IMG/VR virus record: IMGVR_UViG_3300014819_000072
Location: 1 to 23,535 of that record
Reading direction: 5' to 3' (one strand)
Source of the DNA: a virus
DNA length: 23,535 nucleotides
Shown: in pieces, positions 2,702 to 22,633 of the stretch
How positions within the stretch are numbered: the first letter of the stretch is position 1
Layout: each line of letters opens with the position of its first letter
Notes under the pieces: generated by a model
What the model was told of the DNA's origin: nothing
What the model saw: the letters and a program-made list of their open reading frames with translations, nothing else
Databases searched by the model: none
Made by a program: the position numbers and the translations under genes

Positions 2702-2709
2702 TATTTATC
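2702..2709 (-). promoter_or_regulatory. Late-promoter-like GATAAATA upstream of the capsid-targeted protein
   Basis: GATAAATA on the minus strand, one base from the T4 late consensus TATAAATA. It overlaps the TGA stop of the preceding gene and lies 18 bases before the ATG at 2683, leaving room for the AGGGACC ribosome-binding element. Confidence 0.6.
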
Positions 2710-3190
2710 AATTAAGGTTATTTTTTCCGTTTAGAATTTTTAATAATTCGTTACGGTCTAAGGCTTGCCCATTCCCTAATGGAACATTAGAAATATCTTT
2801 TTCAACAGGGTTTAATTTAGCGTCAAGTGCTGCTTTTTTAAGTTGCAATTCAATCATTTTAAGTTTTTTATTTACTTTAGCTGTTTTAGCAGTTATTGCA
2901 TGTCCCAACATTGTGCCAGCTACTCCAAAGATTTCTGCACTAAATCTACTATCAACTTGCATCCCAAGATCCATCAAGTCTTTATAACTATCTTTAGCTA
3001 ATTCTACTAACTCATCCATTTCTACATCCGCAGTTTCTAAACCACGAACTTGAGGCAAAGCAGTTTCTATTTTTTGTAAACTATCTAACGCAGACTGTGT
3101 TATTTCAGCAGTCTGTTGAGGCAAAGGTTCAACCAAATCGTTTTTTTCGGATGTGGCTAATTCAAATAATTCTTCTAATTTTTTTGTCAT
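2708..3190 (-). CDS. gp16: Probable small terminase subunit (T4 gp16-like)
   Basis: 160 residues, almost wholly helical. Residues about 55-120 match the pattern of the T4 gp16 core: an acidic start, DSYKDLMDLG, a Phe/Ala-Glu-Ile-Phe helix (AEIFGVAGTMLGHAI) where T4 and cyanophage gp16 have an HMEVFATLMGQM-like helix, then a Lys-rich coiled helix (NKKLKMIELQLKKA). In T4-like phages gp16 forms rings that recognise DNA and stimulate the gp17 packaging motor; gp17 is not in this window. Length is close to the 164 residues of T4 gp16. It follows gp4 directly, and its ATG lies only five bases after AATAAATA with no ribosome-binding sequence. The call rests on pattern recall, not a database search; a generic coiled-coil structural protein is the alternative. 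Confidence 0.6.
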   Translation of the reverse strand: MTKKLEELFELATSEKNDLVEPLPQQTAEITQSALDSLQKIETALPQVRGLETADVEMDELVELAKDSYKDLMDLGMQVDSRFSAEIFGVAGTMLGHAITAKTAKVNKKLKMIELQLKKAALDAKLNPVEKDISNVPLGNGQALDRNELLKILNGKNNLN

Positions 3191-3195
3191 ATTGG

Positions 3196-3203
3196 TATTT
3201 ATT
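3196..3203 (-). promoter_or_regulatory. Late-promoter-like AATAAATA abutting the gp16-like start
   Basis: Minus-strand AATAAATA followed by CCAAT and then the ATG at 3190. It touches the gp4 stop codon. If used as a T4-type -10 element, the message would begin within a base or two of the start codon. Confidence 0.55.
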
Positions 3204-3640
3204 TACCTTTTCTTACCATTATAGAAAAGGTCATCCTCGGTAATTACTCTAAAAGCATATCCTTGACTTTTACAATATCCCATAGCCGCTGCCCATTTGG
3301 CATGATTAACTGCAACTATTGCTCTATCTTTTGCATTACTTACTTTACTCTCAATTAAACTTTGTTTTTTTGGTTTGATTTCTACAACTTCTGCCATTTT
3401 TTTACCAAACTTGTTTTCGTAAACAACAAAAAAATCTGGGATATAATTTGTTTTTTTACCTGTTATAGGATTAACATACGGAATACTTAATGCTTCACTT
3501 GCCCAATATAAAACATTTTTGTTTGAATCACAAAAGGTCATAAATGTAAGTTCCCATCCACTACGATATTTTGGTGAATGTTTGCCTATATATTTAGAAG
3601 GATTTTTAGGCGTGTATATGCCTTGTGCCCATTTACCCAT
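3203..3640 (-). CDS. gp4: Head completion protein with PD-(D/E)xK nuclease fold (T4 gp4 family)
   Basis: 145 residues, matching T4 gp4 (also called gp50) in length and motif order: basic N-terminus with NPSKYIG, then YRSGWE (E30), LYWASEALSIPY at 45-55, YIPDF (D69), and EIKPKK at 87-92. E30, D69 and E87-x-K89 form the nuclease core typical of this TnsA-like family, and the C-terminal FRVITEDDL is also shared. In T4, gp4 acts on filled heads before neck attachment; infection-ready particles are not made without it. The gene starts one base after the stop of the upstream gene (TAA-A-ATG), so translation is probably coupled. All expected catalytic residues are present. Confidence 0.92.
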   Translation of the reverse strand: MGKWAQGIYTPKNPSKYIGKHSPKYRSGWELTFMTFCDSNKNVLYWASEALSIPYVNPITGKKTNYIPDFFVVYENKFGKKMAEVVEIKPKKQSLIESKVSNAKDRAIVAVNHAKWAAAMGYCKSQGYAFRVITEDDLFYNGKKR

Positions 3641-4302: not shown

Positions 4303-5109
4303 CTACTTTTTTTTGGGCCAAGGTGACTGTGTTACATCGTAATTTGGTTGTAGTCCAAAACCAGTAATAACATCTGATATTGTACGACCTTGCATTTCAC
4401 CATAATTATATACAACAGTTTCATAATCTAATGTCATCGTATTACGCATAGTACCACCACCTTCATCGTAGTTGTATTGGTCATGTGCGAATGCTGTAAT
4501 CATTGGATTAATAAGTGTATATGCTGTAAAGTTATTTAAGTGAAATCCAAACACTGTAATAGATTTAAAAAATGGGGCTTTAGTTGAACTACCACTATAT
4601 GATTCACCTATATATCCCCAATCAGCATTACCTGTGATACTTGGCGTATAAGTTGTCCTATTATTAAAGTCACTCATGGTGTTTGTTGTGGTTGTTCCAC
4701 CTGCACCTGTTGTCGCTTGGGTGTCATTACCTGCAACGCCTCCAATTACTATTTTTGGTTTTGCCCCGTCCCTGTAATAATACTTGTAATAACCTTCCCA
4801 CATTTGAGTTACTTTACTAAAATTATCATCATGAAAAGTGATTGTAACTGGGTCATAACTAATTTTAGTCTGCACAATTCTTTTACGATTGTATTGATTG
4901 AGTTGTTGCGTTTTTATACTGTAACTAGGTAATTTGACATCCTTCACCAATAGTCCATAGTTATCGCCTGTACTTAAATTACGATTAAAAGCTTGTTGAT
5001 TTATATCAAAATAAGTATGAAACAGGAACTTGTATTTAGGAGCATTTCTATATAGATTTCTCCTAAATACAGCACCTGCGTGTTGATAATCCCTAAGTAA
5101 TATTGTCAT
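4303..5109 (-). CDS. Second tail-tube-like protein (gp19 / gp48 / gp54-type fold)
   Basis: 268 residues. Residues about 26-110 have the tail-tube pattern: FLFHTYFDINQ, LLVKDVKLPSYSIKTQQL, then RKRIVQTKISYDPVTITFHDD, in which strands packing into the tube wall carry the 'conjugate plus Pro-x-Ser/Tyr' signature. The C-terminal part has ITVFGFHLNNFTAYTLINPMIT and TMTLDYETVVYNYGEMQG, typical closing strands. A Gly/Thr-rich loop at about 130-150 interrupts them. Its ATG overlaps the gp19 stop (TAATG), so the two are probably translated together. In T4 the baseplate proteins gp48 and gp54 share this fold and start tube polymerisation, so this may be a tube initiator, terminator or minor tube protein. 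Which of these is not decidable here. Confidence 0.65.
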   Translation of the reverse strand: MTILLRDYQHAGAVFRRNLYRNAPKYKFLFHTYFDINQQAFNRNLSTGDNYGLLVKDVKLPSYSIKTQQLNQYNRKRIVQTKISYDPVTITFHDDNFSKVTQMWEGYYKYYYRDGAKPKIVIGGVAGNDTQATTGAGGTTTTNTMSDFNNRTTYTPSITGNADWGYIGESYSGSSTKAPFFKSITVFGFHLNNFTAYTLINPMITAFAHDQYNYDEGGGTMRNTMTLDYETVVYNYGEMQGRTISDVITGFGLQPNYDVTQSPWPKKK

Positions 5110-5756
5110 TAGCCGTTTGTTGCTAAATCACCTGAGGTAGGTCTTGTATAAGTCTGACCAACACCAATAGTTGGGCTACCACCACTATCTGTTTGTATAG
5201 CATTATCATACTTTAATGTTAATGCGATTGTTACAACATCACTTGTAGCATAATTTAGTGTTTGATAATTTGCACTTTGTAAGTAACAGCCAACCAATTC
5301 CCAAGTTTCTAAGACAACAGGTAACGCAACTCCATTACCACCGTCTAGTATTTCAATAATTGTGCTAAACTTGTAATCACCTGCTGAAGCAGCAGTAGCT
5401 TGATTTACAAAATCGATTTGTTTCTGTAATTGTTGTCCAACACTTTTTGCTACTTGACCATTAGCATCATCTCTAACATTGATTGTCATTGGTTGCCAAG
5501 TATGTTTACCAGCCATGTAAATTCTTGAATTGTAAACATTTAATGTGATATCATCAAATTGTACTTGTGGTCTTGTAACATCAGTAACTTGTCTTGTTAA
5601 AGCAAGTGGTCCTTGGTTATCATTTAAAAAACCAAAATTGTAAAACTCTACTCTAAATCTGTATTGTAATTTTGGCATTAGTAAAATTTGATTACCAGTG
5701 CCTCCATCTGAACCGAAAACAGAAAGATTGTTTAATGATGCTAATGCGATTGACAT
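5109..5756 (-). CDS. gp19: Tail tube protein (T4 gp19)
   Basis: 215 residues, somewhat longer than T4 gp19. Recognised by LMPKLQYRFRVEFYNFG at about 26-42, the RQVTDVTRPQVQFDDITLNVYNS segment at 55-77, GKHTWQPMTINVRDD at 83-97, and the C-terminal WELVGCYLQSANYQTLNYATSDVVTIALTLKYDNA strand pair. The protein polymerises as stacked hexameric rings to make the inner tube inside the sheath. The gene has a clear AGGAG ribosome-binding site, its own GATAAATA octamer at 5778-5785, and a hairpin separating it from gp18, which allows expression separate from the sheath. The short C-terminal Gly/Ser/Thr tail after residue 190 is an extension. Confidence 0.92.
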   Translation of the reverse strand: MSIALASLNNLSVFGSDGGTGNQILLMPKLQYRFRVEFYNFGFLNDNQGPLALTRQVTDVTRPQVQFDDITLNVYNSRIYMAGKHTWQPMTINVRDDANGQVAKSVGQQLQKQIDFVNQATAASAGDYKFSTIIEILDGGNGVALPVVLETWELVGCYLQSANYQTLNYATSDVVTIALTLKYDNAIQTDSGGSPTIGVGQTYTRPTSGDLATNG

Positions 5757-5777: not shown

Positions 5778-5785
5778 TATTTATC
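5778..5785 (-). promoter_or_regulatory. Late-promoter-like GATAAATA for gp19
   Basis: Minus-strand GATAAATA 21 bases upstream of the gp19 ATG, followed by a canonical AGGAG. It lies just downstream of the gp18/gp19 hairpin, the arrangement expected of a terminator followed by a new promoter. Confidence 0.65.
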
Positions 5786-9458: not shown

Positions 9459-9470
9459 ACCTTCGAAGGT
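9459..9470. promoter_or_regulatory. 12-bp perfect palindrome adjoining the HNH-gene promoter
   Basis: ACCTTCGAAGGT is its own reverse complement and ends directly before the TATAAATA octamer at 9471. It lies between two divergent promoters, where an operator or small hairpin would affect both. No protein is known to bind it. Confidence 0.4.
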
Positions 9471-9478
9471 TATAAATA
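9471..9478 (+). promoter_or_regulatory. Exact T4 late-promoter octamer TATAAATA before the HNH-like gene
   Basis: TATAAATA followed by four bases (CAAT) and then the ATG at 9483. It matches the T4 late -10 consensus in all eight positions. No ribosome-binding sequence fits between it and the start, so a message made from it would be leaderless or nearly so. Confidence 0.65.
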
Positions 9479-9482
9479 CAAT

Positions 9483-9836
9483 ATGGCTACAATTAGACCT
9501 ATTTGTAAGGTGTGTAATAAAAATGTGTGTGCCGTTAATTATAAAAAATTAGGTGTGACACATTATAGAAGCCTGTGCGATAATTGTGGTAGAACTTTTA
9601 AGAAATTACCACCATTCAAACCAAATTGGGAAAAGGCAGGCTACATTAAGAAAGGTACATGTGATGTATGTGGGTTTAAATCACAGTACCATTCTCAAAT
9701 GACAGTTTACCATATTGATGGTAATTTACAAAATGTTAATTTCGTAAACTTAAGAACTGTATGTCTAAATTGTGTAGAGATTGTTAAAAGAAAACAACTT
9801 ACTTGGAAGCGTGGTGATTTACAAATTAACTATTGA
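9483..9836 (+). CDS. HNH-like / zinc-knuckle protein of T4-like marine phages
   Basis: 117 residues with four CxxC pairs: C8-x2-C11 and C32-x2-C35 in the N-terminal half, C60-x2-C63 and C94-x2-C97 in the C-terminal half. The second pair of knuckles frames YHIDGNLQNVNFVNLRTVC, which follows the HNH-endonuclease layout (His77, Asn81, Asn89-Leu90), although the usual first His of the HH pair is Tyr76. It therefore resembles an HNH nuclease with a changed catalytic start, and could be a nicking enzyme or a nucleic-acid-binding protein only. I recall close relatives of this size in T4-like cyanophages, annotated as hypothetical. It is on the opposite strand to both neighbours, and its last 18 bases overlap the end of the dNMP kinase gene. 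Expression appears late and leaderless. Confidence 0.8.
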   Translation: MATIRPICKVCNKNVCAVNYKKLGVTHYRSLCDNCGRTFKKLPPFKPNWEKAGYIKKGTCDVCGFKSQYHSQMTVYHIDGNLQNVNFVNLRTVCLNCVEIVKRKQLTWKRGDLQINY

Positions 9837-10451
9837 CTTAATTTTATTATGCAATTCATCAATAGTACCATTGTTGTCTATTGTAAAATCATAATCTAAT
9901 CCAACGCTACTATATTCGCTTGCATGTACATTATACTTAATCAATTCACTTTTCGCTAGAGCCCAACCTATTTTAGACGGCCCACGATTATATTGTTCAG
10001 CAAACTCATACCACTCAGGACGTATACCTCGTTCTATTCTACAAGTAATACCGCCTGCATTCTTAATTGCACTAACTTCATTAATAAACCTACAATCAGT
10101 AATCACAATATTATCTTTTGTACTTCGTAACTTATTCTCTACGCTTGCTACCCAAATGTCAGGATGAAATCCTTCTCTACATACTTCAGTGCCCCAATAT
10201 TGCATTACCCATCTTGGAGTAAGTTGAGGCATATTTAATCTTTCTGCCCACCATGTATCAACTTTTTCACGCCATTCACGGCTTGTTTTGGTCGTGCCCT
10301 CTAACATTTCACGATCCCAACCAAATACGCTACAAATAGCATCCTTTAAACTTGCTGCAAAACTTAATCGTTTGAATCCATGAAACGTGCAAAGATAATC
10401 TGCTACAGTATCTTTGCCACTACCGATAAGACCAGTAACACCAATAATCAT
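9819..10451 (-). CDS. gp1: Deoxynucleoside monophosphate kinase (T4 gp1)
   Basis: 210 residues. The Walker A loop GLIGSGKD at 7-14 (Lys13) follows strand MIIGVT. Further marks are FKRLSFAASLKDAICSVFGWDREMLEG at about 26-52, WVMQYWGTEVCREGFHPDIWV at 81-101, and NIVITDCRFINEVSAIKNAGG at 113-133, all characteristic of the T4 gp1 family. It phosphorylates dNMPs to dNDPs for phage DNA synthesis in the cytoplasm. GAGGGG at good spacing precedes the ATG. Unlike its late neighbours it has no ATAAATA octamer but has a sigma70-like promoter, which fits a nucleotide-metabolism gene expressed early. It overlaps the convergent HNH-like gene by 18 bases. Confidence 0.93.
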   Translation of the reverse strand: MIIGVTGLIGSGKDTVADYLCTFHGFKRLSFAASLKDAICSVFGWDREMLEGTTKTSREWREKVDTWWAERLNMPQLTPRWVMQYWGTEVCREGFHPDIWVASVENKLRSTKDNIVITDCRFINEVSAIKNAGGITCRIERGIRPEWYEFAEQYNRGPSKIGWALAKSELIKYNVHASEYSSVGLDYDFTIDNNGTIDELHNKIKSIVNL

Positions 10452-10472
10452 TAGTAACCCCTCTTTTATATT

Positions 10473-10500
10473 AGTGTAATATATTACAGAAAAAAGTCAA
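10473..10500 (-). promoter_or_regulatory. Sigma70-like promoter for the dNMP kinase with 14-bp palindrome
   Basis: On the minus strand TTGACT (10500-10495) and TACACT (10478-10473) are 16 bases apart, scoring five and four matches to TTGACA and TATAAT. Between and overlapping them is the perfect palindrome TGTAATATATTACA (10488-10475), placed like a repressor operator. It lies in the 57-base gap between gp13 and gp1. Promoter use and regulator binding are inferred. Confidence 0.5.
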
Positions 10501-10508
10501 GTACTAGT

Positions 10509-11294
10509 TTACCCTTGTATCCAAGTTAAAGGTTGACTGTAATCAACATAATTCTTAAGTTGATCCAATAATGCTGTTTGTGCTTCCTTAGCTTCTGCTT
10601 TCATCGCAGCTCCATTTAATGAGGTGCCACCACTTGGACCTGCAATCGTGCCAAATTTTTCTCTTGCTTCCCCTATAATCATTTTACATTGTGCTAAAAT
10701 AAAGTCTCCTATCCAAACACCTGCACCTGGATCTTGTAATAACTCTAACTCAGGACGTTGAACATCAGCCCAAATTAATATACGCTCACCTGTACCTTTA
10801 AAATCTCTGACTACTCTTAAAACTTTAGTGACAGGGTTGAAGGTATATGTGACATACCCTCCAAACATACGTGCTGCTAATTCAACATACCCAGCATAAA
10901 AATCATATGTTGCCATTCCACCTGTATAATTGTAATTAAGCAGATATGTGTTTAGTATAGCACTACTAAAAGGATCAAATGCTGTGGAACTTGGGCCTGT
11001 TTCTAACCCAACTGTTCTACGAAACAAAGAACGAACATTTATAAATTCACTAGGTAAAGTATAAGTGTCAATGTTTTTTATTACAGTCATCAATGTATAT
11101 GATTCAACTGTGGCATTTTGTGCTCTCTGTCTATAGACCTTAATAGCATAATTGTATGCGGCTTCGTAATGTTGAGGGTCTAGTTCAATATCTATGATAT
11201 CACCACCTAAACGAAGCCTGCAATTATCAAAAATTGCTTGTTTATATTCTTGTAAATCTAAATTAGTTGGGGTAGATAATAGATCAGCAGCCAT
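10509..11294 (-). CDS. gp13: Neck protein (T4 gp13-like)
   Basis: 261 residues. The opening LQEYKQAIFDNCRLRLGGDIIDIELDPQHYEAAYNYAIKVYRQ (about 14-56) is the helical head-interface pattern of gp13-type neck proteins in marine T4-like phages. This is followed by a beta section with YTLPSEFINVRSLFRR and a C-terminal RILIWADVQRPELELLQDP...WIGDFILAQCKMIIGEAREKF helix region. With gp14, gp13 seals the filled head and makes the tail-binding site. ACGAGGA precedes the ATG, and GATAAATA lies 18 bases further up at 11313-11320. Unlike in T4, it is not next to gp14: a 410-residue unknown and a strand switch separate them. Confidence 0.75.
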   Translation of the reverse strand: MAADLLSTPTNLDLQEYKQAIFDNCRLRLGGDIIDIELDPQHYEAAYNYAIKVYRQRAQNATVESYTLMTVIKNIDTYTLPSEFINVRSLFRRTVGLETGPSSTAFDPFSSAILNTYLLNYNYTGGMATYDFYAGYVELAARMFGGYVTYTFNPVTKVLRVVRDFKGTGERILIWADVQRPELELLQDPGAGVWIGDFILAQCKMIIGEAREKFGTIAGPSGGTSLNGAAMKAEAKEAQTALLDQLKNYVDYSQPLTWIQG

Positions 11295-11312
11295 GATAAT
11301 CCTCGTTTACAG

Positions 11313-11320
11313 TATTTATC
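11313..11320 (-). promoter_or_regulatory. Late-promoter-like GATAAATA for gp13
   Basis: Minus-strand GATAAATA followed by CTGTAAA, a GAGGA ribosome-binding site and the gp13 ATG, 18 bases after the octamer. The extension AAATACTGTAAA is shared with the octamer at 12584-12591. Confidence 0.65.
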
Positions 11321-11332
11321 AGGCTGCACTAA

Positions 11333-12562
11333 TCAAAATGCTTTAAGAATTATCATTGTTTCATTGAATCTACCATTTGGTACAACACTAACCGCTTTGA
11401 TATCTTTAAAATATTTTCTAGCGGCAGGCTTACTACCTACAATTTCTTTAATCTGTTCAGCAGGTTTACGTAAAGTTTTAACTTCACTTTGCTTAGTACA
11501 AAAGCCCAATAATGTGTTACCCTTTACACTAAATGTTTTACTGTAATCGTCCGCTACATAATGATGTAGCTTACGCTTTGCAGTATCATATACCCATGCT
11601 TCAGTAGCTCCGTGTAATTTAACTGGATGCAAACTAACCAAATCTAATTTTGTTGCAGGATCTTTAAATTCCTTTAGATACTTTAGTTTAGCAACTTGCT
11701 TTTCTACAGGAATTGCCTTACGTGCCCTAGGAGCCTTAGCAGCCTTCTTTACACTAACATAGCTGTTGAGGTCACTAATGACTTGTTCAATAAATTTGAT
11801 GATATTTTTAATTTGTACTTTGGTTAAATGTCTATAGCCTTCAATTAATTGGCTATCTTTACCTTTAAGCAAAGTTTCAAACTCGTCTTGTTTTTTCTTC
11901 CATACTTCAGTAAGTATGGAAATATGCTGTGGTAATATGTTTTTTCTTTGAACCTCATCTATTACTTTTGGAACAAATTTTGCACTTGCACCTTCAGTAA
12001 TAAAGTCATCAAATAAACCCTCTAGTTCACCACCTGCCTCACGGGTACGTTGACGCATGATATCTTGAACATTTGGTTTAACAGATTCTTTTTTGATGAC
12101 TGCGTTTTTACCCGTAGCTGAAATCTTTACTTCAGGCTTATGCACAGCCTTTATTAAACGTGAAATTTCTCTGTCCAATGTAGCTTGTTCCTGTTCGTTT
12201 AGTTCTAAGCCACGTAATTTCATTCGACTCAACCAACAAATAGTAGGAATCAATTCATTGTCATCTACTTTCCTGATAGTCTTAGCATCCACTACCCTGT
12301 CATTTTGGTCTAGATAGTGTGCAAGTGCTTCCTTAGCGTCTTTTCTTGCATAAAATCTATTGTACCAAGTAAAAGCTTTTGCCAATGCTGTAAAACGATT
12401 GTCGGGTTGTACAGTAAATTCAGGTTCATTACCGAAATATTTGGTATCAGGATCTTTAGGATCGAGTGATTTTATAAGTACTAACGAAGTCGCTAACTTT
12501 GTGACCTTTTTAATTGTCTTTTGTTTAGGTTCGACTGGTGCTGCTTTTGCCTTACGTGCCAT
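11333..12562 (-). CDS. Conserved-looking unknown protein, Lys/Arg-rich, between gp13 and gp14
   Basis: 409 residues from the ATG at 12562 (MARKAKAAP), chosen because GGAG lies six bases before it; an in-frame TTG at 12574 overlaps that ribosome-binding site and is unlikely. The first 30 residues are strongly basic. A globular section at about 28-135 has KLATSLVLIKSLDPKDPDTKY followed by a Trp-Tyr-rich helix (AFTWYNRFYARKDAKEALAHYL). A helical middle and a basic linker (KKAAKAPRARKA near 277-288) lead to a C-terminal domain ending FNETMIILKAF. No signal peptide or membrane segment is seen. I recall similar N-termini in uncultured marine phage contigs, without a function. Basic tails suggest nucleic-acid or DNA-filled-head contact; that is inference only. 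Confidence 0.8.
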   Translation of the reverse strand: MARKAKAAPVEPKQKTIKKVTKLATSLVLIKSLDPKDPDTKYFGNEPEFTVQPDNRFTALAKAFTWYNRFYARKDAKEALAHYLDQNDRVVDAKTIRKVDDNELIPTICWLSRMKLRGLELNEQEQATLDREISRLIKAVHKPEVKISATGKNAVIKKESVKPNVQDIMRQRTREAGGELEGLFDDFITEGASAKFVPKVIDEVQRKNILPQHISILTEVWKKKQDEFETLLKGKDSQLIEGYRHLTKVQIKNIIKFIEQVISDLNSYVSVKKAAKAPRARKAIPVEKQVAKLKYLKEFKDPATKLDLVSLHPVKLHGATEAWVYDTAKRKLHHYVADDYSKTFSVKGNTLLGFCTKQSEVKTLRKPAEQIKEIVGSKPAARKYFKDIKAVSVVPNGRFNETMIILKAF

Positions 12563-12583
12563 GTAATTCTCCAAAATTTACAG

Positions 12584-12591
12584 TATTTACG
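12584..12591 (-). promoter_or_regulatory. Weak late-promoter-like CGTAAATA
   Basis: Minus-strand CGTAAATA, two bases from consensus, upstream of the GGAG and ATG of the unknown gene ending at 11333. Its downstream CTGTAAA matches the gp13 promoter context. It diverges from the plus-strand octamer at 12630-12637. Confidence 0.4.
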
Positions 12592-12629
12592 ATTATACGA
12601 TAAAGCCCATTTATTGTCAAGCCTGATCC

Positions 12630-12637
12630 GATAAATA
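12630..12637 (+). promoter_or_regulatory. Late-promoter-like GATAAATA abutting the gp14 start
   Basis: GATAAATA followed by four bases (CTAT) and the ATG at 12642. There is no room for a ribosome-binding site after the octamer and no Gly-rich purine run near it. The layout matches those of the HNH-like and gp16-like genes. Confidence 0.6.
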
Positions 12638-12641
12638 CTAT

Positions 12642-14363
12642 ATGCCAAAATTATCTCTTTATAGACCAAATAAACAAAATGACTACAGGTTTTTCGATAA
12701 AACAATATCGGAGATGCTTACGGTTGGTGGCACTGATTTATACATCCACAAGTATTTAGGGCCAACTAATCAAGGTGCTAGTAATGATTATACCTTACCT
12801 GAATACAGCAATCTTAACCCAAACAATATTCAAGATTTATTATTTTTAGAAAACAGAGATCGTACATATGATCCAAATATTTATAGATTACGTGGACATT
12901 ACAACGTACAAAACCTTGATTTTGATTTAAGTCAATTTGGGTTATTCTTAAACAATGACATTATATTCATTACTGTGCATTATAATGACATGATAGACAT
13001 TATTGGTAGAAAATTAATGGTTGGAGATGTATTAGAGTTACCACATTTGCTTGACTATAATCCTTTACCCGAAACTATTCCTATTGCACTAAAACGCTTT
13101 TATCAGATAACTGATGCAAACTATGCAAGTGAGGGATTTAGTCAAACGTGGTTCCCACATTTATGGCGTATTAAATGTGAGCCATTAATTGATAGCCAAG
13201 AGTTTAGCCAAATACTTAAAGAACCAATTAACACTGATACTTATTTAGGTATATACGACAACACAAAAGTATATCCTGCTGGGTATGTCATTACATTTGG
13301 TAATAAAAACTATAAATCAAAAATTGAAGTACCCGCAGGAATTATGCCACCTAACAGTACATATTGGGAACTTGACACTGGTGGTGATCTTAAAGAAATA
13401 CTTACTACCTACAATAGAAATATTGAAATTAATAATGCTGTATTAGATGAAGCAAAACGTATTGTACCACTTAGTGGGTACGATGATAATCAATTATATG
13501 TTGTTCCTACATACGGTGTCTATCAAGAAAATGGAGTACTATCTTTAAAAGACGGACAGCCTGCACCACCAATTAATATAGTTGTAGACAGTTCAGGTGG
13601 ACCAACTACAACATTAACAGGTTCTGTTATGATGATTCGTAATCCTAAATACAAAGAACCAAGTGCTGTATTACGTGTTCCAAAGAGTACTTTGACAAGT
13701 ATATGGGATATGACTGCTGATATGGATCATATTAGCGAAAAAATTGATAAATTCGTTCAAGCAAGTTTAGAAGTTATTGAATATCGACCAGAGATGTTAG
13801 AAGGTGGTTCTGGTCCTGTAGAGGGAGATAAAGTATTAGTAGTTCAGTCAAATGGAGCAATAACTGGACCATATGGCACTGCTGATAATACATATGCTAC
13901 AGCCGATCAAGATCCAACACAGCCAGGCTTTACTGATACGATAACACCTCAGATGGACTTTAGGGCAGATTGCGATCCTAGATTTCAATTTATCGCAAGA
14001 GCCACACCTAGAAGTTTTGGTTATAGTGCAGGTTATTTAACAGGAAGAGAAACTCCTCCAAATGGATTACCATCAGGAGCAGGCATCTCCTTCCCACAAA
14101 ATCCACAAGTTGGTGATTACTTTTTAAGAATTGATTATTTACCACAAGTCTTATTTCGTTGGAATGGGCAATTATGGGTAAGAATTAGTTCATCAGTACG
14201 CACAGCAACAGGGTATACCAGTGATGATTTATCATTAAAATCATCATTCATAAATAACAATGCTCAAATATATATGCAACAGACAGGCACGTTTATACCA
14301 AGTGCACAAGGTCTGTCAGAAATTTTAGATTTGTCCCCACCTAATTTACCACCTAAGGCGTAA
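12642..14363 (+). CDS. gp14: Extended neck protein (T4 gp14-like)
   Basis: 573 residues, over twice T4 gp14 (about 256). Residues 15-190 carry the neck core: FFDKTISEMLTVGGTDLYIHKY (a subunit contact segment), DLLFLENRDRTYD at 65-77, and VGDVLELPHLLDYNPL ... KRFYQITDANYASEGFSQTWFPHLWRIKCEPL, matching the order in gp14 of marine T4-like phages. Residues 201-244 add a chitin-binding-type module (YLGIYDNTKVYPAGYVITFGN...YWEL). The C-terminal end has a GDYFLRIDYLPQVLFRWNGQLW module. The extra domains could be exposed at the neck and bind sugars; this is inferred. It starts a plus-strand block with gp15 and Nudix, one base separating its stop from the gp15 ATG. Confidence 0.75.
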   Translation: MPKLSLYRPNKQNDYRFFDKTISEMLTVGGTDLYIHKYLGPTNQGASNDYTLPEYSNLNPNNIQDLLFLENRDRTYDPNIYRLRGHYNVQNLDFDLSQFGLFLNNDIIFITVHYNDMIDIIGRKLMVGDVLELPHLLDYNPLPETIPIALKRFYQITDANYASEGFSQTWFPHLWRIKCEPLIDSQEFSQILKEPINTDTYLGIYDNTKVYPAGYVITFGNKNYKSKIEVPAGIMPPNSTYWELDTGGDLKEILTTYNRNIEINNAVLDEAKRIVPLSGYDDNQLYVVPTYGVYQENGVLSLKDGQPAPPINIVVDSSGGPTTTLTGSVMMIRNPKYKEPSAVLRVPKSTLTSIWDMTADMDHISEKIDKFVQASLEVIEYRPEMLEGGSGPVEGDKVLVVQSNGAITGPYGTADNTYATADQDPTQPGFTDTITPQMDFRADCDPRFQFIARATPRSFGYSAGYLTGRETPPNGLPSGAGISFPQNPQVGDYFLRIDYLPQVLFRWNGQLWVRISSSVRTATGYTSDDLSLKSSFINNNAQIYMQQTGTFIPSAQGLSEILDLSPPNLPPKA

Positions 14364-16475: not shown

Positions 16476-17705
16476 TTATGCAGAAGCGATTTGTACTAAT
16501 GGGTAAATCAAACCATTTGCTGTGTTAGCTGCTACTGCACTATTAAATGTTCCATATACTGGAGTCGCATTTGTTAATACAATATTACCTGTTGCAATTG
16601 GTCCTGATGTTGCTGTAAACAATTCAGAATTAATATCACTTAAGCTTTGAACACGCTGAGTTGTTGTATTAGCATATGTAGCAAGTATACTCATTGAGTT
16701 AGGTATCAATGCTGTGTTTGCCAAATTTGCTGTGTAACATTGTGCTGTTAAACCACTTGTGGCACCTGTTACTAGATATTTTTGTTTACCTTTTTGACGA
16801 ACAATAAACCCTGCTTCATCATTTGCATAAATCCATGCACTATTGCTTGTAGTAACAACAGAATTAGCAGCCAATGTAAATGCATCTTGTGTTGCATTAG
16901 CTGTATCAGTATCATTTGTAACTGCAACTGCTACACCACCTTGTGTTGTAGAAACTGTAAAGTGTGTAGCGTTTGCAACTGTTTTAATGTAATATGTTGT
17001 GCCTGTTGTTAAACCACCAATATTTGCATCAAATGTTAATGGTGCATTTGGTAAAAAGTTTTGTGCATTACCGCTTGTTACAACGAAAGATCCTGTCGCT
17101 ACAGTATCAGTAATAGCTTCTGTAATAGCTGCAATTGCATTAACAAATCCAATATTTGTCACAGCGCCTGTTTGACTGTTAACAACTTGAATTGCTGATC
17201 CTGCTGCTAAATCTGCTACATTACCAAAATCAGTACCTTGTCCTACTACAATATTTCTTGCATCTGAAGTATAGATAGTGCCTGTACCACTTACCCCGAT
17301 AGCAACACGGCATAGAACTTGATTTCCAATGATAGCAGTATTACCACCAACCACACCATATGTATTTGCTGTACCTTCTGGATTGTTAAATCCACTATCA
17401 ACAACACCTACTGTTGCACTTACTGTAGTACCTGATGTATCACTTAATGCCACTACAGCATAAGTAGGATTAGCACTGAGTTGAGTTGCTGATACTGTAA
17501 AATTATTAGCGTTGATAACTTGCAAAATGTAATATGTTGTGCCTGCTGTTAAGCCACCTGTTGAACTTGCAGTAACAAAAGGCATACCTGCAATTACACC
17601 TAAATTTGTTAAACTTTGACTAACTGTTACATAATCTGTTGCTGCTGTGGTAGCTGTAATTGTTAGTATTGCTTGCGCTTTGGCAATTTTTAAAGGGCGT
17701 CCCAT
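16476..17705 (-). CDS. Beta-rich virion protein of unknown role
   Basis: 409 residues, dominated by Gly, Ala, Thr, Val and Asn, poor in Lys and Cys, with a basic start MGRPLKIAKAQ. Two copies of a module, GLTAGTTYYILQVINANNF near residue 50-75 and GLTTGTTYYIKTVANATHF near 231-250, lie 180 codons apart; the DNA of the two is also close. Between them is an AIGVSGTGTIYTSDARN segment. Residues near 300-325 (EAGFIVRQKGKQKYLVTGATSG) resemble a compact domain often seen in phage structural proteins. It is preceded by GATAAATA, three predicted hairpins and an AAGGAG, suggesting high expression. It lies in the tail-fibre block; a fibre-associated, baseplate or capsid-decorating protein is likely. Family not recognised. 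Confidence 0.8.
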   Translation of the reverse strand: MGRPLKIAKAQAILTITATTAATDYVTVSQSLTNLGVIAGMPFVTASSTGGLTAGTTYYILQVINANNFTVSATQLSANPTYAVVALSDTSGTTVSATVGVVDSGFNNPEGTANTYGVVGGNTAIIGNQVLCRVAIGVSGTGTIYTSDARNIVVGQGTDFGNVADLAAGSAIQVVNSQTGAVTNIGFVNAIAAITEAITDTVATGSFVVTSGNAQNFLPNAPLTFDANIGGLTTGTTYYIKTVANATHFTVSTTQGGVAVAVTNDTDTANATQDAFTLAANSVVTTSNSAWIYANDEAGFIVRQKGKQKYLVTGATSGLTAQCYTANLANTALIPNSMSILATYANTTTQRVQSLSDINSELFTATSGPIATGNIVLTNATPVYGTFNSAVAANTANGLIYPLVQIASA

Positions 17706-17724
17706 TTGTTTTCTCCTTATATAA

Positions 17725-17778
17725 AGTGGGTTCTATTCCACTACGCGGCGGGGACCGCATAAACTCACCCTATGTGAG
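17725..17778 (-). promoter_or_regulatory. Structured 5' leader with three small hairpins
   Basis: Between GATAAATA (17787-17794) and the start of the 409-residue gene lie three inverted repeats: CTCAC/GTGAG (17764-17778), GCGG/CCGC (17748-17758) and AGTGG/CCACT (17725-17742). The stretch is markedly more GC-rich than its surroundings. It may stabilise or control the message. It shares a TTATGCGG block and the ribosome-binding surrounding AAAACAA with the gp18 leader. Confidence 0.45.
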
Positions 17779-17786
17779 CTATAAAG

Positions 17787-17794
17787 TATTTATC
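17787..17794 (-). promoter_or_regulatory. Late-promoter-like GATAAATA upstream of the 409-residue gene
   Basis: Minus-strand GATAAATA two bases past the stop of the 91-residue gene and about 80 bases before the ATG at 17705, leaving a long leader unlike the other copies. Confidence 0.6.
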
Positions 17795-17796
17795 AA

Positions 17797-18085: not shown

Positions 18086-21000
18086 TTATGCGTAAGTAGC
18101 GCCTACTGTATACCATTGTGAAGTTGATACTGCAACATATTGCAACGTAGAAACCGTAGGTTGTGTATAAGCTGCATCTGCTGCTAAGGCATTAATTGCA
18201 GCACTAGAAGGCGGGTAAACTAATAAATTATTTGCACTACTATTTCTAATTATAATAACCATTCCTGCTATTGCTGTTGGCAATTTAACTCCTTGACCTG
18301 AGCTAACAGTTGATACAACATTAATATCTTTTGATAATCCAGTCGCTGTAGCTTGTGTACTACCATTAGCACTAATACCTGTACCAACAGAACGTATAAA
18401 ATAACTATTTGCAATTACATTATTACCAGTTATATTTCCTGAGGCACTTACGTTTCCTGTCGTTGTTATGTTACCACCTGAAACATTTCCAGTTGCAGTA
18501 ATATTATTAGTAGCACTAAAATTATTACCGCTTATATTACCATTTGCGACAACATTTACATTTGCCAATACATTAGCACTGGTAGTAATATTCCCCCCAA
18601 CATTTGCTAAATTACTGACACTTATGTTATTTGCAGTAACATTACCATCTACAGTTAAACTTGTACCTGTTGCTGCTCCAATATTTGGCGTAGTAAAAGT
18701 AGCACTAGTTTTTACAACTATGTTGCCACCGACAATAGCTGTAGTCGTGCCATCTGTATTAGCACTTATCAATGTACCAGAAATATTTATACCATTGCCT
18801 GCTGTATAGGATCCTGCTGCACTGAATTGGCTAAATGATATATTATTAGTACCAATTATTATTTCACCTGTTGGACTAGATAATACCCAACTTGTACCTG
18901 CGTTAGTAGATCCTTGAGTTACAAATAAATAATCTCCGGAGCCCATACCAGATGATGAACCAGGCACATATTTATTCATATCACTTGATCGTGTTAATAC
19001 CCAAGCAGTTGAACTATTACCAGGAGTAGTTACGACATAGACACCATTCTGTGCGTTTGCTGTTTGACCTACAAGCAATACTCGTTGTGCTGCACTTACT
19101 GTTATACCATCTATCGTTAATGCAGCATTGGCGCCTGAATTAGTTAGTGTTGCACCCACACCAGGGTTAGCTCTTGCTCCTTGAGACAATCCAGTACCAT
19201 TTGTTAATGTTGTTATTTCAGAACCAAAATAATTATTTTTAATTGTAATTTGAGTTGCAGCAGGAACAGTCGCTACCCAATACCCTTCACCACCTATTAT
19301 GCCATTAAATGTACTAGTCCAAACAATACCATCATTAACTGACAATCCATGCGCCCCACTAAATGTAATTGTGTTACCACCAGATATAGTAGTTGTAGTA
19401 GGTGTGGTACCACCATTGGCATATGTACCTGTCAAATTAGTTGTAAGTGCAACATTAGCAGGACTATGTATTGTTAACCCAGTTCCTGCAATAGCATCAA
19501 CGTATTCTTTATTTGTGGCATCATTAGGACTAGTTACTGAACCAACCTGGGTAATTCTTTTACCTCCTGCATCAACCGTTCCTGTACCAGTAGGTACTAA
19601 GTAAATTGATTCATTAGTACCTGCTGCCGAAATTGTGATATTACCTGAAGGTGCTGTGATTACAGCACTTTTTAGACTACCTGCTCTAAGTTCTGTAGTA
19701 ATGTTTGCGTTGCCACCAAATATATTACCATTTGCAGTAATATTACCATTAGCTTCAATATAACCTAAGGTAGCTTGAATATTTCCTGCTACTCTAAATC
19801 CTGTGCCTGTAAATGTTCCAATATTAGCGTTACCAGTTACACTTACTTCTACATTGGCATTATTGTAAACTTTTACATTACTATTACCATAACTTATGGA
19901 TCTTACATTACCAATACCACTCCCATCCCCAAAAATAATACCTGATCCAAAGAAACTATTACCATTTGCAATATATAATGACCATGCATTTGTAGTGCTT
20001 AAATTTCCAACTGTTATTGGTGCATTCTCTATGTATAATGTTGCGAGTTCAGTGGTAGAAACATTTGCGTTTGATGCCCCAACGGTTGGTTTACCTATAG
20101 CATGAACAGCAGCTACACTAATTGCTGTGTTAGCAGCAACTTGTGCTACATAATTTGAAGAAATAACTCTAAAACCTAAATTACCTGTTACAGTTGCAAC
20201 ATTTATATTACCAGTCAAATCACCTGTTATATTCAACAAAGGACCATTAAAATTACCAATTAGATAATTGCCATTTATGTTGCTGGAAACATTCATTGTG
20301 CCAGCAACATTTACACCTGTACCTGTAACTACTACAATATTTGAATTCCCAGCTATACTAATTGTAGCATTGCCATTCGCAGCTGGAATACTTACATTAC
20401 TATTTCCATTGCTTATGCTTGAGGTACTTATTGTTATCCAACTTAAATTACCACTTCCGTTCGTTGATAAAATTTGACCATTACTACCACCTGTTATAAT
20501 TACATTACCTACTGGGCCTAAATTAGATACACCTGTTGCAATTAATCCTGTTGTTCCTATATTTCCTACATTAGCATTAGCACTTACATTTAATGTACCT
20601 GTAACATTAACTCCTGTACCTGTAACTACAAGAATATTTGCATTACCTGCTGAACTAATGTTTACATTACCATTTGCAGCAGGAATAGCTAGGTTACTAT
20701 TGCCGTTTTGTAACAACCCACTATTAATAGTAGTAATATTACCTGTAGTTATTATAGCCGTATTTGTTCCTATATTTCCTATATTGGCATTACTGCTTAC
20801 ATTTAATGTACCTGTAACATTCACACCTGTACCTGTAACTACTACTATGTTTGCATTACCTGCTGAACTAATGTTTACATTACCATTTGCAGCTGGAATA
20901 GCTACGTTACTATTGCCATTTGCAAGAGGTCCTAATAGAGATCCAATAAAATAATTTGCTGTAACAGCGTTTCCTAAGTTTGCATTACCACTTGTTATAT

Positions 21001-22600
21001 TACTATTTGCAATAAAATTATTTGCAGTTAAGTTGCCAGTTTGTGGATCAAAACTAAACAATGTGTTTGAATATAATTGATAATTGTTTGCTATATTATC
21101 ATTCACAAATACTGGGTAAAATGTCCCAGTTGCTATCGCTTGTACATTTGAAAAATCACTAACATTTGCTCTTGCAACATTTAAATTAGCTACTCGTGTG
21201 GATGAAGTAACCGTTAATGGTGCTGTGCCTGTTGCTACATTAGAAATTAGTACAGGCGCAATAACTGTACTAGAAACATTTAAGTCATTACTTATATTAG
21301 CATTACCTGTAACACTTAAAACTTTAGGAGATAATCCAAAGTTCCAAGTTAATCCTGCATCTCCATCTAATAAATTATTATTATTAAATTGAATTGTTGT
21401 ATTTGAACCCGATGCCTCAGTCGCCCCAGAACTACCAATGGCAGAAATAATTCTACCACCTTCAACATAAACTGATGCTGAAGCAAAAATTTCATCCTGT
21501 ACAGGATAGACAGGGCCAGGTGTTCCGTTAGCAGTTGTTGCTGAAACTCGTATTGTAGTTATTGATGGTACTGCATTTACATAATAAGTTACTCCAGTAG
21601 ATAAATCACTATTGCCTAAATCCCCTACAAATCTAACAGGATCATTTACTGTAAACTGTGCTGAGTTACCGACTTCAATCGTATAATTTGCATTAAAAGA
21701 TTCTTGTAATGGTGTGTAAGCATAAGAAGTATAATTATTTGAATATAATGGTGTTGTTAAACCTGGATTTAAAAATAATCCTATTGTATTTGATGTAAGT
21801 AAATCTATATAAAATGAGTTGCCATTTAGTTCTGTCATTCCAATGGCATCTGTTATAGTTGCTTCAGCACCTTCTGTTAAAAAGTTAACTTCAGTGGTAG
21901 TTAATATAGTACCCACCATATTTAGGGTAAGATTACCTGTACCATTTGTTAATGTAATATTAGCATTACCTGGCGTATCTGTAATTGTAATTTGCGTTGA
22001 TGATAATACATTTCTAATATAATATAAGTTACCCACAGTAATATTACCAAAGCCGGTGCCCGAAAATGTAACAGGTGCATTAGCTGTATAGCCCGAACTA
22101 TTTGCAACTTGTATAATGTTATTACTAGCAAATGTGTTGGATGCTGTAGTTTGATATGTTGGTAATTTCGCAGGAGTTACATTTTCAATAAATGATATAA
22201 TTGTACCCTTTGGAGTCCAAGATAAATTACCAATTCCATCTGTGGTTAATACATAACCTATAGCACCGCCTGTTATTTTAACATTACTTACATCACCTAA
22301 GTTAATTAATCCACCTGACGCACCACCTCGATTAACCCAATCAGCTCCGTCAAAAGTTAAAACCTGTCCATCTTCTGCGGTAACAGGATTAATATTTAAA
22401 TTGCCATAACTTCCTGATAATGCGCCAAAGTTTATTTCAGAGTAGGTAGTAAGAATTTCTACATTTTCATTTGGAGTTGTTTTACCAATATATAGTTTTT
22501 TAACGTCTGTAGCCCAGCCTAGCTCGGCCTCGTCAAGTTGTGGTAAATCAACGATATTACCTGATCTTTGTTGAATTTTTGAAATTTGAATAATAGCCAT
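18086..22600 (-). CDS. Long tail fibre with repeated beta domains
   Basis: 1504 residues. Residues 1-45 (AIIQISKIQQRSGNIVDLPQLDEAELGWATDVKKLYIG) match the N-terminal fold that attaches receptor-binding proteins such as Mtd and many fibres to the baseplate. Most of 400-1000 is a long array of short Gly-Asn repeats (GNAN, GNVN, TGNI) typical of a triple beta-helix shaft, with three near-identical blocks around 560-600, 630-670 and 730-772. Residues 1020-1240 have a common fibre module (DATNKEYVDA, LVGQTANAQNGVYVV, SDMNKYV, NAGTSWVL). The last 130 residues (QATATGLSKDINVVSTV...NNLLVYPPSSAAINA) resemble a frequent fibre tip domain. Modules with a YY-I/V core are shared with the 409-residue neighbour. 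It is the likely host-recognition protein; no chaperone or peptidase motif was seen. Confidence 0.88.
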   Translation of the reverse strand: MAIIQISKIQQRSGNIVDLPQLDEAELGWATDVKKLYIGKTTPNENVEILTTYSEINFGALSGSYGNLNINPVTAEDGQVLTFDGADWVNRGGASGGLINLGDVSNVKITGGAIGYVLTTDGIGNLSWTPKGTIISFIENVTPAKLPTYQTTASNTFASNNIIQVANSSGYTANAPVTFSGTGFGNITVGNLYYIRNVLSSTQITITDTPGNANITLTNGTGNLTLNMVGTILTTTEVNFLTEGAEATITDAIGMTELNGNSFYIDLLTSNTIGLFLNPGLTTPLYSNNYTSYAYTPLQESFNANYTIEVGNSAQFTVNDPVRFVGDLGNSDLSTGVTYYVNAVPSITTIRVSATTANGTPGPVYPVQDEIFASASVYVEGGRIISAIGSSGATEASGSNTTIQFNNNNLLDGDAGLTWNFGLSPKVLSVTGNANISNDLNVSSTVIAPVLISNVATGTAPLTVTSSTRVANLNVARANVSDFSNVQAIATGTFYPVFVNDNIANNYQLYSNTLFSFDPQTGNLTANNFIANSNITSGNANLGNAVTANYFIGSLLGPLANGNSNVAIPAANGNVNISSAGNANIVVVTGTGVNVTGTLNVSSNANIGNIGTNTAIITTGNITTINSGLLQNGNSNLAIPAANGNVNISSAGNANILVVTGTGVNVTGTLNVSANANVGNIGTTGLIATGVSNLGPVGNVIITGGSNGQILSTNGSGNLSWITISTSSISNGNSNVSIPAANGNATISIAGNSNIVVVTGTGVNVAGTMNVSSNINGNYLIGNFNGPLLNITGDLTGNINVATVTGNLGFRVISSNYVAQVAANTAISVAAVHAIGKPTVGASNANVSTTELATLYIENAPITVGNLSTTNAWSLYIANGNSFFGSGIIFGDGSGIGNVRSISYGNSNVKVYNNANVEVSVTGNANIGTFTGTGFRVAGNIQATLGYIEANGNITANGNIFGGNANITTELRAGSLKSAVITAPSGNITISAAGTNESIYLVPTGTGTVDAGGKRITQVGSVTSPNDATNKEYVDAIAGTGLTIHSPANVALTTNLTGTYANGGTTPTTTTISGGNTITFSGAHGLSVNDGIVWTSTFNGIIGGEGYWVATVPAATQITIKNNYFGSEITTLTNGTGLSQGARANPGVGATLTNSGANAALTIDGITVSAAQRVLLVGQTANAQNGVYVVTTPGNSSTAWVLTRSSDMNKYVPGSSSGMGSGDYLFVTQGSTNAGTSWVLSSPTGEIIIGTNNISFSQFSAAGSYTAGNGINISGTLISANTDGTTTAIVGGNIVVKTSATFTTPNIGAATGTSLTVDGNVTANNISVSNLANVGGNITTSANVLANVNVVANGNISGNNFSATNNITATGNVSGGNITTTGNVSASGNITGNNVIANSYFIRSVGTGISANGSTQATATGLSKDINVVSTVSSGQGVKLPTAIAGMVIIIRNSSANNLLVYPPSSAAINALAADAAYTQPTVSTLQYVAVSTSQWYTVGATYA
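20286..20930. repeat. Three imperfect repeats within the tail fibre gene
   Basis: Three related blocks of about 125 bp begin near 20289, 20586 and 20799 on the plus strand. The second and third are about 213 bp apart (71 codons) and nearly identical; the first lies 297 bp before the second (99 codons) and is more diverged. On the coding strand each encodes NGNSN-(V/L)-(A/S)IPAANGN followed by VVTGTGVNV-(T/A)GT. In-frame spacing means copy number can change without breaking the gene. Confidence 0.85.
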
Positions 22601-22625: not shown

Positions 22626-22633
22626 TATTTATC
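22626..22633 (-). promoter_or_regulatory. Late-promoter-like GATAAATA for the tail fibre
   Basis: Minus-strand GATAAATA in the 38-base gap between the nuclease stop and the fibre ATG, 25 bases before the start. The fibre has only a weak ribosome-binding site (CTTAAAG). Confidence 0.6.

Follow-up and report, generated by a model that had tools for sequence, protein, structure and literature searches.

Across a group of uncultured jumbo T4-like myoviruses, late-promoter boxes (TAAATA) fall into two classes according to their distance from the start codon, with a gap between them, and in the closer class the box lies only 4-5 nt before the ATG. The existence of the two classes across relatives is shown by sequence, as are the accompanying purine rule, conservation of spacing, absence of SD matches and adjacency to terminators. 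We consider it likely (probability roughly 0.8) that a T4-type late polymerase transcribes the closer class into late mRNAs that genuinely lack a leader, a reading in which RNA 5' ends, leaderless translation and gating are inferred in the absence of RNA data. The coexistence of two late-message classes, proposed in an initial annotation of the DNA, is supported by the distance classes and by the base composition of leadered promoters, with the RNA 5' end and a separate translation route remaining unproven.

Two distances between late box and start codon

The window, i.e. the whole stretch of DNA analysed, is a 23.5-kb IMG/VR virus record from this group. In three of its genes ATAAATA ends 4, 4 and 5 nt before the ATG with no SD at a usable distance, as the initial annotation had stated. 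The first is an HNH-endonuclease-like gene on the plus strand (9483-9836, 117 aa; PHROG 2255, E=1e-5; a Pfam HNH_3 match falls below that profile's cut-off), whose box at 9472-9478 (TATAAATA at 9471-9478) is followed by CAAT and the ATG at 9483. The second, also on the plus strand, is a gp14-like virion structural (neck) gene (12642-14363, 573 aa; PHROG 11591, E=5e-85), with the box at 12631-12637 followed by CTAT and the ATG at 12642; it opens a plus-strand operon in which gp15-like and NUDIX genes come after it, the gene directly downstream having a Pfam T4-gp15_tss match. The third lies on the minus strand (2708-3190, 160 aa) and matches PHROG 16202, of unknown function, rather than gp16 as had been suggested; its box (3202-3196) is followed by CCAAT and the ATG at 3190, and shares bases with the stop codon of the gene before it (3203-3640) and therefore sits inside an operon.

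By contrast, other late promoters on the minus strand of the window are leadered: those of a gp13-like gene (10509-11294; box 11313-11319, 18 nt, GAGG), of gene 5109-5756 (box 5778-5784, 21 nt, AGGAG), of gene 2060-2683 (box 2702-2708, 18 nt, GGGA; 17 of 18 relatives are likewise leadered) and of a tail-fibre-like gene (18086-22600; box 22626-22632, 25 nt). With a further gene (ATG 9367), whose octamer is followed by a 54-nt leader, the leadered range in the window is 18-54 nt, and the earlier claim that other octamer genes have leaders of at least 18 bases held (18, 18, 21, 25 and 54 nt). Two details of that annotation fared less well: ATAAATAC is separated from ATATG by 1, 1 and 2 bases and not by 2-4, and the ATATG context is not kept in relatives. 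As a separate observation, a minus-strand box at 17793-17787 lies 81 nt before gene 16476-17705 with the GC-rich ctacgcggcggggaccgc in between (region 17706-17796), possibly a structured leader.

In 12 related contigs (set 1, 946 genes), with genes called by simple codon usage, we determined how far TAAATA lies from in-frame ATG starts. Single genes were found at each of 0, 1, 2 and 3 nt, followed by 32 at 4 nt, 28 at 5 nt and 7 at 6 nt, a trough above 6 nt and a broad second mode at 18-25 nt. Six further contigs (642 genes) replicated the peak (0 at 3 nt, 21 at 4 nt, 24 at 5 nt, 4 at 6 nt), and a pooled set of 21 related IMG/VR contigs with 1,663 ATG starts, all of them predicted, held 52 + 47 genes at 4-5 nt, 1 at 3 nt and 11 at 6 nt. 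The 99 starts at 4-5 nt compare with 22.8 expected when each gene's upstream sequence was rotated (300 draws, maximum 38), and permuted boxes gave no peak at this distance unless they were one-base shifts of TAAATA. The small tails at 6-8 nt imply leaders of 1-3 nt in some genes, and a strict 5'-AUG is therefore not universal. The sample is limited in that the contigs are related to each other and fragmentary, their host is unknown and gene starts are predicted.

Could such boxes arise beside start codons by chance in AT-rich DNA? The motif is indeed common, and its number in the window is unremarkable (5 ATAAATAC versus 3.0 expected), so that the signal is carried by position only. Against chance stand the excess over the rotation null, its replication in an independent contig set, the retention of the spacing in two gene families with 80 relatives sampled for each, and the fact that T4 and GAP32, which are similarly AT-rich, have no gene at 4-5 nt. 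Chance is all but excluded for the class, while any single gene could still owe its box to it.

Predicted transcription start and ribosome sites

A purine occupies position 5 or 6 after the box in about 93% of leadered late promoters, and the purines at these two positions are mutually exclusive (282 promoters: YY 20, YR 93, RY 116, RR 53; Fisher p = 1e-17), with 2e-5 as the strongest signal for any other pair of neighbouring positions. The simplest reading, which is likely but inferred from base composition, is that RNA begins on the purine at position 5 or 6, which puts the box about one helical turn ahead of the start. This agrees with the numbering of the T4 late box from -13 to -6, which places +1 at position 6 (PMC2988020), and with the annotation's statement that T4 late transcripts start about six bases after the octamer. 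In predicted leaderless genes the A of the ATG occupies position 5 or position 6 and rarely any other. At 5-nt spacing a pyrimidine directly precedes the ATG in 54 of 64 genes, versus 53% at other ATG starts (p = 3e-7), as would be needed if RNA synthesis could otherwise begin one base too soon on a purine at that place; no such purine occurred in set 1, but 10/64 did in the full set, which weakens this result, and at 4-nt spacing the pyrimidine preference was not significant (p = 0.08). That the RNA 5' end falls at the AUG is thus inferred from the box distance and the purine rule, no RNA having been mapped.

The lack of ribosome sites sets the two classes apart. No SD match of even 3 nt was found in 44 of 60 predicted leaderless genes, and a 4-nt match in only 1/60, versus a match of at least 3 nt in 143 of 153 leadered ones. 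At 4-5 nt the start codon is almost always ATG (99/102, with 3/102 GTG or TTG); avoidance of GTG/TTG by leaderless genes could not be shown, as leadered genes also use few and are nearly all ATG. One could argue that TAAATA beside the AUG is an A/U-rich translation element (e.g. an S1 site) on a message started elsewhere, and the absence of an SD and the A/U richness of the element speak for this. It is nevertheless very unlikely: boxes of both classes agree in their flanking bases (an A in front and C, T/A, A, T behind), with an AT-rich segment downstream, the purine rule ties box distance to the transcription start, and box permutations other than one-base shifts produce no peak there.

In the leaderless reading, the TAAATA box fused to the start codon would be read by a gp55-like sigma factor (there are no infection data on dependence on gp33, gp45 or replication), and the polymerase would initiate at the purine that lies 5 or 6 bases downstream of the box, i.e. 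the A of the AUG. The late message would then begin 5'-AUG without a leader and would need initiation at a 5'-terminal AUG, while the same polymerase would serve a larger second late class, whose messages carry an SD and a leader of about 12-20 nt. Being only about 11-12 bp long, such a fused unit would fit tight intergenic gaps or the space behind a terminator, and as a read-through message from upstream would present an AUG without SD, translation would be tied to the gene's own late promoter. Candidate gp55-like sigma factors were found as open frames of about 300 aa with 28-34% identity to T4 gp55 in contigs G002, G018, G019 and G020; the match is weak and confined to these four, with none in the other contigs searched, all contigs being fragments.

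Gene context bears on a further alternative, namely that the boxes do act as late promoters while translational coupling on longer polycistronic messages supplies most of the protein, a start beside the AUG adding little. Among 86 predicted leaderless genes with a same-strand upstream neighbour, 46 lie less than 20 nt behind it and in 23 the box overlaps the upstream ORF, as it does for window gene 2708-3190, so that polycistronic transcripts and translational coupling are possible there. Against this, 35 of 121 predicted leaderless genes, including both plus-strand genes of the window, are divergent from the upstream neighbour and need their own promoter, and in 25 of these 35 the intervening gap contains just this one TAAATA on the strand concerned; further leaderless genes come after an intrinsic terminator, and coupling predicts no spike at 4-5 nt with an edge at 3-4 nt. 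We therefore regard coupling as an unlikely explanation. A terminator scan flagged 22/121 leaderless genes, many of them with a hairpin and T-run directly before the box, an arrangement that leaves little or no room for a leader. The scan flagged a similar share of leadered promoters (44/284), so that terminators show independent units but do not alone separate the classes. Where the upstream neighbour is on the same strand, leaderless genes follow it at a median distance of 18 nt and leadered genes at 44 nt, and compactness of the start unit where genes are closely packed is accordingly one plausible reason for the leaderless class. Another possibility is tight coupling of translation to late transcription, as unproven as compactness.

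Gene families and conservation of spacing

Leaderless or leadered state follows gene family: predicted leaderless members occur in 57 families, and of the 34 families in which three or more members were classified, 25 are pure. Among the families predicted to be leaderless are the gp14-like genes, PHROG 16202, PHROG 12928 (virion structural), the terminase large subunit and the gp25-type baseplate wedge; leadered ones include gp13, tail tube, tail fibre and Clp-like protease. Copy number was rejected as a sorting rule and remains a trend only, as low-copy gp13 is also leadered.

Loss of the spacing in relatives had been named beforehand as an outcome that would refute the idea; the comparison was run, and the spacing is kept in gp14-like and PHROG 16202 relatives. 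The gp14-like gene was compared with 80 IMG/VR relatives at 70-83% identity; in all except six of them TAAATA stands 4-5 nt before the ATG without an SD, and the remaining intergenic DNA varies while this spacing stays. The six exceptions (L035, L038, L039, L041, L050 and L062) have a leader with an SD instead. For PHROG 16202, most of 80 IMG/VR relatives are at 4-5 nt, few at 6-8 nt and about four are leadered. On trees of both families the spacing almost always stays within 4-5 nt, with at least five (gp14) and at least eight (PHROG 16202) switches between 4 and 5 nt. The fused box is also retained by most HNH relatives, whose identities extend as low as about 45%. A search of genome contigs for gp14-like relatives, undertaken for host prediction, found none.

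Some features of individual relatives deserve mention. In L035, L039, L041 and L050 the gp14-like gene has a late box 23-32 nt upstream with a strong SD (AAGGAG/AGGAGA) and an apparent ATT start, no in-frame ATG, GTG or TTG lying between the upstream stop and this codon; in L062 it starts with TTG. In the HNH family (L162-L203) a palindrome or hairpin (ACCTTCGAAGGT, AACTCTTCGGGAAGAGTT) lies just before the fused promoter, that of the window being a perfect 12-nt palindrome on the plus strand, ACCTTCGAAGGT at 9459-9470, which adjoins it; other members carry paired AAAAAGG repeats or hairpins longer than the window's at the same place. These elements could mark the boundary of a mobile cassette or form a regulatory hairpin.

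Cultured phages and known leaderless systems

T4 late promoters (TATAAATA; gp55, gp33, gp45) share the box, a start 5-6 nt downstream (inferred here) and the service of virion genes, but T4 late genes are leadered and none has a box at 4-8 nt. Late promoters of T4 soc, e and I-TevI lie near or inside hairpins at the ribosome-binding site, such that only the late RNA is translated; that late RNA keeps its SD, whereas here it would have none. Bacterial leaderless mRNAs and phage lambda cI are alike in having the AUG at the predicted +1 and no SD, and the accepted in silico signature of leaderless genes is a -10 box some 10 bp ahead of the start codon (PMC3160421). The present class differs from these in its phage late-sigma promoter, in its conserved set of virion genes and in the leadered class alongside under the same sigma.

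With the same pipeline, the numbers of genes at 4-5 nt versus 15-30 nt were 0/29 in T4, 0/24 in GAP32, 3/34 in Cassandra, 0/15 in S-PM2, 0/21 in Syn9 and 14/10 in HTVC008M. Among cultured phages, the PA5oct-like Pseudomonas jumbo phages (Arenbergviridae) have the nearest relatives of the gp14-like and PHROG 16202 genes, at about 35-40% identity, and their gp14 gene differs in being preceded by AGGAG and a leader of about 20 nt; Cassandra, one of them, shows no clear excess at 4-5 nt. We rejected the leaderless state as an ancestral jumbo-phage trait, as the gp14 box lies further upstream in Cassandra, Atu_ph07, Phosso, GAP32 and XaC1, several of these orthologues having a clear SD. No box was seen just upstream of the SCTP-2 orthologue, and pattern counts for Atu_ph07, Phosso, SCTP-2 and XaC1 showed no 4-5 nt excess over reversed controls.

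To our knowledge, based on the open-access literature searched, neither leaderless late transcripts nor a systematic leaderless class has been reported for T4-type late genes. If the leaderless reading is true, messages from a single late sigma enter two translation routes according to gene family, and these phages would be well suited to studying why bacteria retain leaderless translation. It also suggests an annotation rule for late genes (box, 4-5 nt, ATG, with a purine at position 5/6). A bolder reading, which we offer tentatively and would not favour on present evidence, is that late genes of some T4-like phages, though served by one late sigma, are translated under two regimes, a fixed, inherited virion set (neck, terminase, baseplate wedge) being made only from leaderless late messages. 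Translation of these virion genes would then be tied to late transcription and to ribosomes competent for a 5'-AUG, and would escape SD-directed control.

HTVC008M, a T4-like Pelagibacter phage (KC465899, loci L378-L385), has 14 genes at 4-5 nt, usually 5, mostly with TAAATAGnnnnATG and including the gp25 baseplate wedge and tail completion genes. Late-promoter prediction is reported to fail in pelagimyophages (PMC7029224), which a leaderless class may explain, and as this phage is cultured, the class is directly testable. HTVC008M differs from the window in being only distantly related, in having G and not C after the box, and in encoding ribosomal protein S21; phage-encoded S21, a candidate translation modifier, was not found in 13 contigs of the window's clade. 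Its GenBank start codons agree with the 4-5 nt class, and a few nt separate the box of gene 75559 from the end of a preceding terminator. The predicted leaderless late class of this phage is as large as its leadered class. For the gp25 gene, the box-to-ATG distance is 5 nt in HTVC008M, 8 nt in Mosig (L388) and 16 nt, with GGAG, in Melnitz (L390).
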